Origin: an uncultured Pelagimonas sp.
Lineage (GTDB): Bacteria; Pseudomonadota; Alphaproteobacteria; Rhodobacterales; Rhodobacteraceae
Length of the DNA: 64,000 nucleotides
Assembly (NCBI GenBank): GCA_947497905.1
Contig: CANMIH010000002.1
Span: 1-64,000, forward strand
Direction: 5' to 3'
In this document: positions 8,136-14,893 of the stretch, one piece after another
Position numbering within the stretch: position 1 is the first letter of the stretch
Layout: every line of letters begins with the position of its first letter
Notes under the pieces: generated by a model
What the model was told of the DNA's origin: nothing
The model's database searches: none
What the model saw: only the letters and a program-made list of their open reading frames with translations
Translations under genes and position numbers: made by a program

Positions 8136-8555
8136 ATGCGCTACTGGCTGTTCAAATCCGAACCCTCAACCTGGAGCTGGGACCAACAGGTCGCAAAAGG
8201 GGAGATCGGTGAAGAGTGGGATGGCGTGCGCAACTATCAGGCGCGCAACTTTATGCGCGAGATGAAATTGGGCGATCGCGGCTTTTTCTACCATTCTCAA
8301 AAAGAGAAATCCGTGGTCGGCATCGTCGAAGTCTGTGCGGAAATCCACCCAGACAGCAAAGCCAATGACCCGCGCTGGGAATGCGTCGATATCCGCGCCA
8401 TAAAACCTCTAAGCACACCCATCTCTTTGGATCAGATCAAAGCGGACCCGCGATTAGAAGACATGATTTTGGTGCGCAATTCGAGACTTTCGGTGCAACC
8501 GGTGAGCGACGCAGAATGGGCTCTTATCTGTGAGCTTGGTGGTGTTTCCCCCTAG
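8136..8555 (+). CDS. EVE domain protein
   Basis: PUA-like EVE domain protein of 139 aa. The opening MRYWLFKSEPSTWSW and the following GVRNYQARNFM and GFFYHS segments are the family signature (thymocyte nuclear protein 1 type). EVE domains bind modified bases in DNA or RNA; the ligand of this stand-alone form is unknown. It is 13 bases after the YciI-like gene and probably last in the tsaD operon. Confidence 0.9.
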   Translation: MRYWLFKSEPSTWSWDQQVAKGEIGEEWDGVRNYQARNFMREMKLGDRGFFYHSQKEKSVVGIVEVCAEIHPDSKANDPRWECVDIRAIKPLSTPISLDQIKADPRLEDMILVRNSRLSVQPVSDAEWALICELGGVSP

Positions 8556-8613
8556 TCCCATCGCATTTTGCGAGGCATGCTGAACCAAATGGCATGCAGG
8601 AGGAGTGGGACAC

Positions 8614-9012
8614 ATGCTTGAAATTATCAATGTTTTGGTGGCTTCGGTGGTGGCCTTTGCTGCTGGTGCAGTGTGGTACATGAAATTGGCCGAACCCTGG
8701 ATGGAGGCGGCAAACATCAAACGCAACGCCGATGGCCAGCCCGAAGGCGGGCAAAACCCCGGGCTGTACGCCTATACGTTTGTGATGCAATTGATGGTGG
8801 CGGGCATGATGCGCCATGTCTTTGAGCTCGCCGTGATCGACAGCCCAGTCAAAGGCCTGGTGGCCGGTGTTGGCGTGGGGCTGTTTTTCATTTCACCCTG
8901 GATCGCGATCAACAACGCCTATGGACAGCGCCCGGTCAAACTGACCGTGATCGATGGCGGCTATGCCACCCTGGCCTGCGCCCTGATGGGGCTGGTCCTG
9001 ACGCTGTTCTAA
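8614..9012 (+). CDS. DUF1761 membrane protein
   Basis: Small inner-membrane protein (132 aa) with four likely helices: an N-terminal helix (LEIINVLVASVVAFAAGAVW), two central ones and a C-terminal helix ending LVLTLF. The pattern VWYMKL.EPWM matches DUF1761, which has no known function. The ATG at 8614 has AGGAGG about ten bases upstream; a GTG at 8605 is in frame but overlaps that site. It has its own short upstream gap after the EVE gene and a strong hairpin after its stop. Confidence 0.75.
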   Translation: MLEIINVLVASVVAFAAGAVWYMKLAEPWMEAANIKRNADGQPEGGQNPGLYAYTFVMQLMVAGMMRHVFELAVIDSPVKGLVAGVGVGLFFISPWIAINNAYGQRPVKLTVIDGGYATLACALMGLVLTLF

Positions 9013-9019
9013 AAGAGTA

Positions 9020-9049
9020 CGGAGGGTCGGCCCCAGGCCTGACCCTCCG
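9020..9049 (+). terminator. Hairpin after the DUF1761 gene
   Basis: CGGAGGGTC and GACCCTCCG make a 9-bp GC-rich stem around a 12-base loop, starting seven bases after the stop codon. No T-run follows, so it may be a mRNA-stabilising or Rho-linked 3' end and not a simple intrinsic terminator. Confidence 0.4.
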
Positions 9050-9133
9050 CTCACCCACGTGCTCCCTAAACACCACACGTGAAAACGAATTCTTTGGTCC
9101 GACCCTTCTAGCCAGTGATTTGAACATAACGCC

Positions 9134-9235: not shown

Positions 9236-9577
9236 TTAGCCGTAAACAGCTTCTTTGCCGAAGTGCTTGGTCAGCATGTAATACACAACCGCACGGTATT
9301 TATTACGCTCGGATTTTCCATAAACTTCAACAACCTGATTGATCGCATCCATCAACTCAGGACCATCTGCCAGACCCAGCTTTTTCACCAGAAAATTCGC
9401 TTTAACGGTTTCCAGCTCGCTGTCCTGCGACGACGCGACAGTCGATGCATCATCGTTGTAAATCGCTGGACCACAGCCGATTGTGACCTTGGTCAAAAGA
9501 TCCATATCCGGCTCCATGCCGCATTTGTTGCGCAGGTCATCCGCATATTTTGCGATCAGGTCGTCACGTTTGCCCAT
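9236..9577 (-). CDS. DUF2853 family protein
   Basis: Small soluble helical protein (113 aa) of DUF2853, function unknown. The opening MGKRDDLIAKYADDLR and the C-terminal YRAVVYYMLTKHFGK segment are the recognisable parts. The ATG at 9577 has GAGGGAG seven bases upstream and is preferred over the in-frame start at 9619. A GC hairpin (CCGGGG/CCCCGG, 9594-9611) lies in its probable leader. Monocistronic, with its own terminator. Confidence 0.8.
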   Translation of the reverse strand: MGKRDDLIAKYADDLRNKCGMEPDMDLLTKVTIGCGPAIYNDDASTVASSQDSELETVKANFLVKKLGLADGPELMDAINQVVEVYGKSERNKYRAVVYYMLTKHFGKEAVYG

Positions 9578-9801
9578 GTCAAACTCCCTCGTGCCGGGGT
9601 TATACCCCCGGTAAGTCATACAATTAACGGGCCAATCCCAGCCCCCGATCGGTAGGTTAAGGGTTATTCAATTTCTGGCAATGGGTAAATCCACAGCCCA
9701 TTTCCCCGCTCACAGGTCACGTAAACGACCAAACGTCGGTCGCGTGCGAAACAGACGTCACATCCCCACTGCGCAAACCTTCCTAAAACAGGGAGGATAT
9801 A

Positions 9802-10668
9802 TTGGGACTTACAGAGACAGAAAAAGCCGCCTACGCAAAAGATGGCTTTGTTGCCGGTGTTCCCGCCTTTAGCGCGGAAGAGACGGCCGCCATCCGTGCC
9901 GAGATAGAAGCACTGGAGGCTCAGCATAGCGCAGGCGCATCCGGTAGGCCGCTCAATCACTATTTTCGGGTCAATGGCCAACTGGTGATTCCGCTCCTCG
10001 CTAAACTTGCCCGCACCCCGGCCATCTTAGAGAAAGTGGCGGATGTTCTGGGACCAAACCTGCTTGTCTGGTCGGTTGAGCTTTTTATCAAAGAGCCGCA
10101 CACAAAATCCGTCGTCAGTTGGCACCAGGACATCACCTATTGGGGCATGGGGGAAACTGACGAAGAGGTCACCGCCTGGGTCGCCCTGTCGGATGTCTCG
10201 GTCGAGGCGGGATGCATGCGATTTATCCCCGGTAGCCATAAAAACAGCATCGTGGATCACGCAGATACATTTGATGAAGACAATCTCTTGTCACGCGGCC
10301 AGGAAATTGCGGATGTGGACGAGACGAAATCGGTTCATGGCCCACTGAAACCCGGTGAAATGTCATTCCACCATGGACGATGTTTTCACGCCTCTGGCCC
10401 CAACCAGTCCAATGATCGCCGTATCGGACTGGCCATTCGGTATGTCACCCCAGAGGTGCGCCAGGCTGACACCGGACCGGATTATGCGATCCCAGTGCGC
10501 GGTGTTGATATGCATCAGGGCTGGATCCCGGTCGCAGGTGCCAGCAGCCTGTTTCACCCCGATGACCTGGCCCTCTATGATCAAGTTCTGAAACACCAAT
10601 CCACAACATTGGCAGGCAACGCAGATGGCGATGTCGCCCTTTATGAAACCGCAGGAGGCAGCGCATGA
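9802..10668 (+). CDS. PhyH-type Fe(II)/2-oxoglutarate dioxygenase, PhnY-like candidate
   Basis: Phytanoyl-CoA dioxygenase superfamily enzyme (288 aa), a non-heme iron oxygenase that uses 2-oxoglutarate and O2 to hydroxylate a substrate. The iron triad is visible: H108 and D110 in SWHQD, and H196 in CFHASGPN, followed by an arginine near 206-207 for 2-oxoglutarate. The start is TTG 9802, supported by GGGAGG five bases upstream. Its stop overlaps the start of the HD-domain gene (ATGA), so the two are coupled. This pairing recalls PhnY/PhnZ, where the first enzyme hydroxylates 2-aminoethylphosphonate at C1. No phosphonate transport or other phn genes are nearby, so the substrate is unproven. Confidence 0.82.
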   Translation: MGLTETEKAAYAKDGFVAGVPAFSAEETAAIRAEIEALEAQHSAGASGRPLNHYFRVNGQLVIPLLAKLARTPAILEKVADVLGPNLLVWSVELFIKEPHTKSVVSWHQDITYWGMGETDEEVTAWVALSDVSVEAGCMRFIPGSHKNSIVDHADTFDEDNLLSRGQEIADVDETKSVHGPLKPGEMSFHHGRCFHASGPNQSNDRRIGLAIRYVTPEVRQADTGPDYAIPVRGVDMHQGWIPVAGASSLFHPDDLALYDQVLKHQSTTLAGNADGDVALYETAGGSA

Positions 10669-11270
10669 GCGAGACACCCACAGTCAGCTTTACCCAGATG
10701 AAAGACGGCACCAAAGAAGAATATCTGATGCTGCACGAGCTGGAAAAGCCTTATCACGCGCTCACCGCAGATCGCATTCTCGACGAAATGCGCCGCCAGG
10801 GTGAAGTCTCACTGGAAGGCTATAAGATCAACCGCCTTCAACATGGGTTGCAATCCGCCACACGGGCCGAGGCCGATGGCGCCGACATTGATTGGATTGT
10901 CGGAGCGCTTTTACACGATGTGGGAGACGGGCTTGCCCCTCAAAACCACGACAGGTTTAGCGCCGAGGTGATCCGTCCGTTTGTGCGCTGGGATGTGTCC
11001 TGGGTGATCGAACATCATGGTATTTTCCAGATGCTATATTACGCACGTCATTATGGTTGGGACGAAAACGCTCGCGACCAGTTCAAAGATCATCCTTGCT
11101 TCAACAGCTGTGCGGAATTCTGCGAACGGTGGGATCAATCCTCCTTCGACCCAGACTACCCAATGAAACCCCTTGAATATTGGGAGCCGATGGTGCGCGA
11201 GGTCTTTGCACGAAAAGCCTATGACCCAGACGTCATCCGTGAGGGATACGTCTCGCCCCTCACAAGTTAA
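10665..11270 (+). CDS. HD-domain protein, candidate PhnZ-like mixed-valent diiron oxygenase
   Basis: HD-superfamily protein of 201 aa. All six metal ligands expected of the PhnZ/TmpB oxygenase group can be placed: H60 (NRLQHGLQ), H84-D85 (LLHDVGD), H95 (NHD), H117 or H118 (EHHG) and D157 (ERWDQ). As I recall the published PhnZ sequence, the 24-residue spacing from first His to the HD pair is the same, and the WD...P.EYW segment aligns. PhnZ-type enzymes cleave a C-P bond with O2 instead of hydrolysing a phosphoester, and such genes are often annotated only as HD phosphohydrolases. The start overlaps the dioxygenase stop. The 3' end overlaps the convergent hxlR gene by four bases. Confidence 0.8.
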   Translation: MSETPTVSFTQMKDGTKEEYLMLHELEKPYHALTADRILDEMRRQGEVSLEGYKINRLQHGLQSATRAEADGADIDWIVGALLHDVGDGLAPQNHDRFSAEVIRPFVRWDVSWVIEHHGIFQMLYYARHYGWDENARDQFKDHPCFNSCAEFCERWDQSSFDPDYPMKPLEYWEPMVREVFARKAYDPDVIREGYVSPLTS

Positions 11271-11644
11271 GTCGTGGCGGTTTTCGCGTCACGGCGTCGT
11301 TGAAACACATCAGCGATCTCGTCGCGGTTTTCCAATGCCCAGCTATGTAACAACGAGAGCGGTTCAATGAATCGCTCTCCATCGGTTGTCAGCCTGTATT
11401 CGACATGCGGCGGCACAACATCATAAACGATCCGCTCAACAACGCCCCAATCTTCGAGATTGCGCAGCGATTGCGTCAGCATCTTTTTGGAAATTCCCTC
11501 CAGCCGTTTCGCCAACACTCCCGGCCGCTGCGGGCCAGTTGAGAGTGCGTAAATCAAGCCCGGCACCCATTTTTCTGACATCATCTCGATCAACTGCCGG
11601 GTGGCACATTTCTTGTCATAGATATCTTGAGTGATCACCTGCAT
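11267..11644 (-). CDS. HxlR family transcriptional regulator
   Basis: Winged-helix regulator (125 aa) of the HxlR group. It has the characteristic EKWVPGLIYAL...RPGVLAKRLEGISKKMLTQ segments and RNLEDWGVVER wing region. A cysteine near the N-terminus (C13 in KKCATRQ) sits where redox- or aldehyde-sensing HxlR proteins carry theirs. It diverges from the DUF1330 gene at 11746 and probably regulates it. It is convergent with the HD-domain gene and shares four bases with it. Confidence 0.88.
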   Translation of the reverse strand: MQVITQDIYDKKCATRQLIEMMSEKWVPGLIYALSTGPQRPGVLAKRLEGISKKMLTQSLRNLEDWGVVERIVYDVVPPHVEYRLTTDGERFIEPLSLLHSWALENRDEIADVFQRRRDAKTATT

Positions 11645-11745
11645 GCAAAAACCTTCATGGTTACCTTTGGGTGCCTAGTTGAAGCTTAGTGCCCCACCTC
11701 CACATCCTAGAGCACAAACAAAACAAAGTGCAAAAGGATCTCACC

Positions 11746-12042
11746 ATGCCCGCATATATGCTTACCTTTCTTCGTGTCGAAGACGCCGAAACACATGCTC
11801 GCGACTATCTCCCTGATGCCCATGCGATTTTGCTGAAATATGGTGGAAAGCCCCTCGCAATCACCGAACACTTTGATGTTCTTGAGGGAAATCTGCCTGA
11901 GGGGCGTTTGATATTGATGGAATTTCCGAGCGCGCAGGCGGCCAAAGATTACTACCTTGGTCCAGAGCACGCGCCCTATAAGGCCATTCTCGACAAGGTC
12001 GCCTCAAGTGATCTGATGGTTTTTGAGGGTCTCCCGGCATAG
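11746..12042 (+). CDS. DUF1330 family protein
   Basis: Small ferredoxin-like (dimeric alpha-beta barrel) protein of 98 aa, DUF1330, function unknown. The start MPAYMLTFLRVED and the ILMEFPSAQAAKDYY..PEHAPYKAIL segment are the family signature. The ATG at 11746 follows AAAGGA; the in-frame start at 11689 lies in the promoter region. It is divergent from hxlR, a common regulator-target arrangement. Confidence 0.85.
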   Translation: MPAYMLTFLRVEDAETHARDYLPDAHAILLKYGGKPLAITEHFDVLEGNLPEGRLILMEFPSAQAAKDYYLGPEHAPYKAILDKVASSDLMVFEGLPA

Positions 12043-14296: not shown

Positions 14297-14893
14297 ATGG
14301 CAACACAGCTACGGGCATGGCAACGGATGCTGTCAGGGCGCAGATTGGATCTTTTGGATCCTACGCCGGTCGATATCGAGATAGAAGATATCGCACACGG
14401 CCTTGCCTTTGTCGCCCGCTGGAATGGTCAGACCCGTGGTGATTTCCCTTATTCTGTCGCCGAACATTCCCTCTTGGTCGAAGAAATCTTTGGGCGGCTT
14501 TACCCCAAAGCCACACCAGCTCAGCGATTGACTGCGCTGTTACACGATGCGCCCGAATATGTGATTGGTGACATGATTTCGCCGGTGAAAGCCGCCGTTG
14601 GTCCGGGCTATGACGAGCTCGACAAGCGACTGACCGCCGCGATCCACATTCGTTTTGGCCTGCCTGCCGCTGTGCCTGTACGGCTTAAGCAACGGATCAA
14701 GCGTGCCGACAAAATCAGCGCCTGGATGGAGGCCACGCAGATTGCAGGGTTCACGACCGCTGAAGCCAACAAGTTTTTCGGCCGCCCCGACCCGGACATC
14801 ATCACCGGGCTTTCAATTCAGCTGCGTGCGCCTTTGGACGTGCGTACAGATTTCACCCAACGCCACGAAACTCTCTTAGGAGCACTGACATGA
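14297..14893 (+). CDS. HD-domain phosphohydrolase, YfbR (5'-nucleotidase)-like
   Basis: HD hydrolase of 198 aa. Metal-binding residues are visible in SVAEHSLLVEE (first His), LLHDAPEYVIGDM (HD pair) and RADKISAWMEA (last Asp). This pattern matches the YfbR/HDDC2 group, which dephosphorylates deoxynucleoside monophosphates. Substrate choice here is inferred. It has no Phn-type context. The stop overlaps the start of the GNAT gene (ATGA). Confidence 0.82.
   Translation: MATQLRAWQRMLSGRRLDLLDPTPVDIEIEDIAHGLAFVARWNGQTRGDFPYSVAEHSLLVEEIFGRLYPKATPAQRLTALLHDAPEYVIGDMISPVKAAVGPGYDELDKRLTAAIHIRFGLPAAVPVRLKQRIKRADKISAWMEATQIAGFTTAEANKFFGRPDPDIITGLSIQLRAPLDVRTDFTQRHETLLGALT

Follow-up and report, generated by a model that had tools for sequence, protein, structure and literature searches.

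Overlapping genes for a PhyH-type hydroxylase and a PhnZ/TmpB-like HD-domain protein, a predicted two-step oxidative module

The PhyH and HD gene pair

In the window, the 64,000-nucleotide stretch of DNA analyzed here, two genes on the forward strand share the four bases ATGA (10665..10668), read as stop codon of the first and start codon of the second. The upstream gene (9802..10668) begins with TTG and encodes a PhyH-type Fe(II)/2-oxoglutarate hydroxylase of 288 aa; the AGGGAGG ahead of the TTG (9790..9796, forward strand) resembles a Shine-Dalgarno sequence and may function as such. The downstream gene (10665..11270) begins with ATG and encodes an HD-domain protein of 201 aa with a PhnZ/TmpB/MIOX-like fold, predicted to be a diiron oxygenase. 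The overlap had been recognized in an initial annotation, in which the pair was proposed to be an organophosphonate oxygenase system, and is borne out. The pair is neighbored by a DUF2853 gene (9236-9619, reverse strand), an HxlR-type regulator gene (11267-11644, reverse strand), which overlaps the 3' end of the HD gene by 4 bases, a DUF1330 gene (11689-12042), and an S-adenosylhomocysteinase-like gene identified by eye. None of these neighbors suggests a substrate. A second HD-type protein is encoded nearby (14297-14893, forward strand) and by eye looks like a YfbR-type hydrolase.

The PhyH protein matches the Pfam PhyH profile with 130 bits (cut-off 22), and its best relative in PDB is 6zyk, deposited as "Monooxygenase" (E 5.8e-38). 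The H-x-D...H triad of Fe/2-oxoglutarate enzymes, noted earlier, is present as H108-Q-D110 (10123..10131), which we take from family knowledge to be the first two iron ligands, and H196 (10387..10389), the third ligand. H108, D110, and H196 are invariant among the 54 aligned PhyH sequences, 4 of which are copies of the window's own. Fe/2OG halogenases carry Ala or Gly where hydroxylases have the Asp ligand. The Asp in HQD therefore argues for a hydroxylase, and the assignment as a halogenase was rejected, with 83.9 bits against the cut-off of 226.3 for TIGR01762.

Fold and active site of the HD protein

The HD protein matches the Pfam HD profile with 26.6 bits (cut-off 22). The significant matches in a sequence search of PDB were PhnZ and TmpB only, and the same was true of the profile search. 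The AlphaFold2 model, built from 43 sequences, has a pLDDT of 94.7, and all 10 Foldseek matches at E<=0.001 are PhnZ or TmpB chains. With VIA-align, the model gave Z scores of 17.9 to PhnZ, 16.8 to TmpB, and 11.3 to myo-inositol oxygenase (MIOX), and 8.4 or less to the remaining chains listed, which include other HD proteins. Z scores under about 13 may be unspecific for helical models; therefore, the match to MIOX alone does not count, while those to PhnZ and TmpB do. That the HD protein would work like PhnZ is well supported by the model, because PhnZ, TmpB, and then MIOX rank ahead of the other chains listed. The profile match in PDB, Foldseek, and the Z scores thus agree with the earlier view of a PhnZ-type oxygenase rather than a nucleotide hydrolase.

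The HD protein scores 38.8 bits on TIGR03276 (cut-off 214.6) and 26.7 bits on the TmpB model NF049941 (cut-off 300). On the PhnZ1 model NF052439 it reaches 25.6 bits (cut-off 300), and the PhyH protein reaches 23.7 bits against 500 for PhnY*; the Gimesia-type PhnY*/PhnZ1 system for methylphosphonate shares the two-step logic. Membership of the HD protein in any of the three HD models was rejected. In a quick tree calculated without a mixture model, in which deep branches are unsure, the HD family groups by itself, separately from the five PhnZ/TmpB-type rows (support 100, starred).

The active site was compared between 218 distinct HD-family sequences and 21 PhnZ/TmpB-type sequences, including the TmpB of the window genome itself. 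All six HD-type ligands predicted earlier are present in the window protein: H60 (10842..10844; H34 of PhnZ), the dyad H84-D85 (10914..10919; H58-D59 of PhnZ), H95 (10947..10949), H118 (11016..11018), and D157 (11133..11135). They are conserved in 218 of 218 family sequences except H95, which is conserved in 217, and H60, H84, D85, H118, and D157 are also identical in the 21 PhnZ/TmpB-type proteins. The choice between H117 and H118 left by the initial annotation falls on H118; position 117 is H in only 150 of the 218 sequences and K in 39, and was rejected as a ligand. The alignment with PhnZ is gap-free over the first, 24-residue spacing, as had been claimed.

It is possible to read the HD protein as a hydrolase or another non-oxygenase, with PhyH as its neighbor for another reason. 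Even the deposited name of the solved PhnZ is "Predicted HD phosphohydrolase", so a name settles nothing, and D88 (10926..10928) takes the place of H62 of PhnZ, which is H in PhnZ and TmpB. Against this reading stand the Z scores of the other HD proteins listed (8.4 at most, compared with 17.9 for PhnZ), the retention of all six ligands, and the recurrent pairing with two Fe/2OG families, which follows the logic of PhnY/PhnZ and TmpA/TmpB. We consider a hydrolase quite improbable; the HD protein is likely a diiron oxygenase.

The residues around the iron site are different from those of the phosphonate enzymes. The column of PhnZ H62, within the motif HDxGH, is H in 21 of 21 PhnZ/TmpB-type proteins and D in 215 of the 218 HD-family sequences (K in 2, E in 1). 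The K of the HVxAKR motif, invariant in the former, is Q in all 218 of the latter. The R that precedes the final ligand, D, likewise invariant in the 21, is retained in only 2 of the 218, where the column reads E 171, H 17, A 13, D 5, Q 4, G 4, R 2, S 1, and gap 1. These cationic H, K, and R residues presumably hold the phosphonate, and the pocket argument rests on their invariance in the PhnZ/TmpB-type set and their loss in the HD family. Two further columns correspond to the YxxE loop. Y24 of PhnZ is Y in 21/21 against 14/218, and E27 is E in 21/21 against 3/218 (Y 181, F 32, M 2). The role of Y24 and E27 in this loop is described in the available part of PMC8177086. Both letters are kept together in just three relatives, L259, L262, and L269, all of which are paired with PhyH. 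These three count against the non-phosphonate reading. L259 and L262 each have HD-family genes in tandem ahead of the PhyH gene and, by eye, a Rieske-type gene on the upstream side; one HD copy of each tandem pair keeps the YxxE letters.

The window protein has L50, Y53, D88, Q122, and E154 at these five columns. The same L-Y-D-Q-E is read in L140 and L222, which lie in carnitine operons, in L254 with carnitine genes, and in L212 and L245 with a TmpA-like partner, while L232 reads M-Y-D-Q-E and L198 T-Y-D-Q-D. These letters are common to most of the HD family and therefore point to a shared pocket; they do not identify a substrate.

The known systems resemble the pair to different degrees. PhnY/PhnZ, which acts on 2-aminoethylphosphonate, consists of an Fe/2OG hydroxylase and an HD oxygenase according to the available part of PMC8177086. 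It shares with the window pair the combination of genes, the HD fold, the six ligands, and the first spacing, whereas H62, the YxxE loop, and the invariant K and R are absent from the window protein; identity of PhnZ to the window protein in structure alignments is 20-23%. TmpA/TmpB, for 2-trimethylaminoethylphosphonate, is likewise encoded by two overlapping genes, and other HD members pair with TmpA-like dioxygenases; however, TmpA is BBOX-like, while the window partner is PhyH. MIOX is a C-C bond-cleaving diiron oxygenase of the HD type, with 15-16% identity and a Z score that by itself could reflect a common helical arrangement; the HD protein of L229 has a sub-threshold Pfam MIOX match (20.4 bits, cut-off 25). 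MIOX works without a hydroxylase partner, and only MIOX, PhnZ, and TmpB are named as HD-domain oxygenases, in the available part of PMC8177086 (2020). PMC10574752 (2023), as far as its available part goes, adds PhnZ homologues that are again C-P bond cutters.

Distribution, dioxygenase partners, and the phosphonate question

The HD family was found in 99 of the 295 genomes sampled from the taxonomic family of the window organism, which is Rhodobacteraceae-like judging from named relatives, and in 109 of the 385 sampled from its class (E<=1e-30). Across the phylum, 74 of 398 sampled genomes matched at E<=1e-5, a count that includes weak PhnZ-type matches, and 62 full-length HD places were listed in 59 genomes. 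In the family sample, 38 of the 99 HD-bearing genomes have a PhyH homologue as the gene immediately upstream of HD, and the pair is therefore not due to chance. PhyH appears to depend on HD and not the reverse, because 53 of the 55 genomes with PhyH of this type (E<=1e-40) also have HD (in one genome, G280, only a broken copy), yet 46 of the 99 HD genomes are without such a PhyH. Several genomes have a solitary HD gene at the DUF2853-ahcY site that elsewhere holds PhyH and HD.

The partner is exchanged among relatives. A set of 237 HD copies comes from loci that overlap and are related and so do not represent independent genomes; L140 and L229, for example, are the same place. Of these copies, 53 are partnered by PhyH, 8 by a TmpA/BBOX-like dioxygenase, and 9 by carnitine genes without an adjoining dioxygenase, and for 167 no partner was called. 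Outside the taxonomic family of the window, 13 of 80 HD loci have a PhyH (L231, L247, L259, L262, and L269) or a TmpA-like dioxygenase (L198, L211, L212, L232, L233, L241, L245, and L251) beside HD on the same strand. A PhyH or TmpA-like gene anywhere in the locus was found in 14 of 80 HD loci against 1 of 40 random stretches of contigs from these genomes (p=0.019, relatedness uncorrected); the controls contained a single weak PhyH match (84 bits) and lacked TmpA-like genes. On the tree, 19 changes are needed for PhyH pairing, 5 for TmpA-like pairing, and 4 for the carnitine neighborhood.

Several other associations were observed. A class II aldolase-like gene directly adjoins HD in L131, L190, L199, L200, and L206, an identity checked with NCBIfam on L131, and a Crp-type regulator (by eye) is nearby in three of these five loci. 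L239 and L244, from genomes of 1.2-1.3 Mb with 29-30% GC, show the order purF-HD-gshA by eye with overlaps or tiny gaps, suggesting a core role for HD in these streamlined genomes. In L232 and L233, TmpA-like and HD genes share one run with a DMSP demethylase gene (483 bits, cut-off 410, scored in L232) and with transporter and RidA-like genes identified by eye.

The window genome encodes a separate TmpA/TmpB pair (G000:C17:7374-8507 and 8504-9094, locus L133) with a 4-base overlap. Its TmpA scores 581 bits (cut-off 400), and its TmpB matches the solved TmpB with 377 bits, while remaining under the cut-off of TIGR03276 (197.6 against 214.6). Three PhnD-type binding proteins over the cut-off are encoded in the genome (C20:39348, C2:367451, and C14:93266), none of them adjoining the pair. 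The earlier observation that no phn transporter lies beside the pair is correct and says little. A PhnD profile, built from only three PhnD-type proteins, all of the window genome, matched nothing in 205 HD loci or in 20 PhnZ/TmpB-type loci; since PhnD is absent from all 20 of the latter too, the missing transporter was rejected as an argument against phosphonates.

The pair could still be a genuine organophosphonate oxygenase with a rebuilt phosphonate pocket. PhnZ and TmpB are the closest solved relatives of the HD protein, and five of the six HD-adjacent TmpA/BBOX-like dioxygenases that were tested prefer the TmpA model over that of gamma-butyrobetaine dioxygenase. The partner in L198 exceeds the TmpA cut-off (423 against 400), while those in L212, L232, L241, and L245 score 334-358, under it, and the divergent gene of L240 reaches 326 with the BBOX model and 322 with that of TmpA. 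HD also co-occurs with TmpB in the family sample, being present in 29 of the 39 genomes that carry TmpB (p=2.5e-8). This co-occurrence means that HD does not replace TmpB, and it may only reflect lineage. The exchange of H, K, and R for D, Q, and mostly E, the near absence of the complete YxxE, and the scores far under the cut-offs of all three phosphonate HD models weigh against a rebuilt phosphonate pocket, which we regard as improbable. With these residues lost or rare and a separate TmpA/TmpB in the genome, the organophosphonate label is probably wrong, although the enzymatic logic proposed with it is probably right; the substrate of HD is likely not a phosphonate, in line with the earlier suggestion that it differs from that of PhnZ.

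Carnitine context and the proposed reaction

Carnitine genes flank HD in several loci. In L229, from the taxonomic family of the window and the same place as L140, genes for BKACE, HD, and a carnitine-dehydrogenase-like protein run in one direction, followed in the same direction by acyl-CoA dehydrogenase-, CoA ligase-, and hydratase-like genes (the last by eye). The order BKACE-HD-dehydrogenase is also found in L222 and L224-L228, six genomes of one genus from another family. In L254, HD is followed by an opposite-strand thioesterase-like gene, a BKACE-like gene, and a carnitine-dehydrogenase-like gene (344 bits, cut-off 414). L198 has the order TmpA-like, HD, choline-type binding protein beside a GbdR-like regulator, together with BKACE-like, thioesterase-like, and BBOX-like genes and an L-carnitine dehydrogenase-like gene (413.7 bits, cut-off 414). 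The L222 dehydrogenase scores 590.8 on the carnitine 3-dehydrogenase model (cut-off 592); thus, none of the three scored dehydrogenases (L222, L254, and L198) reaches its curated cut-off, and two miss by a hair. In the quick tree, the HD proteins of L140, L222, and L224-L228 fall with PhyH-paired HDs into one starred clade of 31 rows, and those of L254 and L198 are placed elsewhere.

Other genes for quaternary amines occur near HD: GbdR-like and sarcosine-oxidase genes in L184, L214, L256, and L261, a glycine-betaine-monooxygenase-like Rieske gene in L212 and L089, MttB-like genes in L221, L132, L184, L256, and L261, and a dimethylglycine-dehydrogenase-like gene near four distant HD members (L127-L130). 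In a general neighbor test, such markers were present in 11 of 80 HD loci and 2 of 40 random ones (p=0.22, not significant), although the markers had been picked after seeing some loci, a bias that favors enrichment; therefore, no statistical enrichment is claimed. Carnitine-dehydrogenase-like genes are present in 94 of 99 HD genomes against 123 of 196 genomes without HD. Since they are likewise present in 39 of 39 TmpB genomes, this co-occurrence, although strong, is not specific to HD. The window genome encodes a carnitine-dehydrogenase-like protein and a BKACE (85% identity) elsewhere, and no carnitine marker was found within 6.5 kb of the window pair.

Carnitine dehydrogenase and BKACE beside HD mean that the known CoA route is present, which leaves the step of HD unexplained. 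Replacement of the thioesterase of carnitine dehydrogenase by HD was rejected: the L229 dehydrogenase (484 aa) has a thioesterase domain beside HD, although those of L222 and L224-L228 (364-379 aa) are too short for it. Among the matches listed, with subscription journals mostly outside their scope, no publication on an HD enzyme of carnitine or roseobacter metabolism was noticed, and no mention of the HD family was noticed in the available part of PMC12421898.

We propose, with a probability of about 0.5, that the pair is a two-step oxidative module whose substrate is probably not a phosphonate, with a betaine-type hydroxy acid such as carnitine as the leading candidate. PhyH, which probably acts ahead of HD, would use Fe(II), 2-oxoglutarate, and O2 to hydroxylate a small aliphatic substrate. 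With another molecule of O2, the HD diiron enzyme would then remove the hydrogen adjacent to the hydroxyl so formed and cleave the neighboring bond, following R-CH(OH)-X + O2 -> R-COOH + HO-X, an equation generalized from the reactions of PhnZ and MIOX. For X = CH2COO- and R = CH2N(CH3)3+, carnitine would yield glycine betaine and glycolate. In the window organism, carnitine might be made from gamma-butyrobetaine by PhyH; in other bacteria, the hydroxylated substrate might be supplied by TmpA/BBOX-like enzymes or a CoA route, and a solitary HD gene might serve carnitine taken up ready-made. A betaine-type acid as the substrate of HD is a tentative assignment, below even odds. The most specific version, in which HD is an O2-dependent, CoA-free diiron oxygenase that cleaves carnitine or a related betaine hydroxy acid, with PhyH, TmpA/BBOX-like enzymes, and a CoA-dependent route as three interchangeable ways of supplying the hydroxylated substrate, and is spread through over a quarter of the genomes sampled from the class, is unlikely.

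Most HD copies are solitary and many contexts are housekeeping, which speaks against a carnitine module. The same two-step module might instead act on another non-phosphonate metabolite available in many of these bacteria, such as an alpha-hydroxy acid, a polyol, or a sulfonio compound (for example, a DMSP derivative), with PhyH and TmpA-like enzymes as optional feeders. The solitary and widespread occurrence of HD, including the small genomes with purF-HD-gshA, the DMSP demethylase in the run of L232, and the aldolase-like gene in five loci would fit such a metabolite. Against it, HD is flanked by carnitine genes in three or four contexts that are independent of one another, with 4 changes on the tree. 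This alternative is possible, if on the doubtful side, and the module for a betaine-type hydroxy acid is retained as the leading proposal.

Our verdict on the HD family is that it is a new, broad, and uncharacterised branch of HD-domain diiron oxygenases. Counts of "PhnZ-like" genes need checks at the residue level. If so large a family keeps the iron site and has a different pocket, the range of HD-oxygenase chemistry would widen, and the HD family could contribute a further step to the turnover of quaternary amines by marine bacteria.
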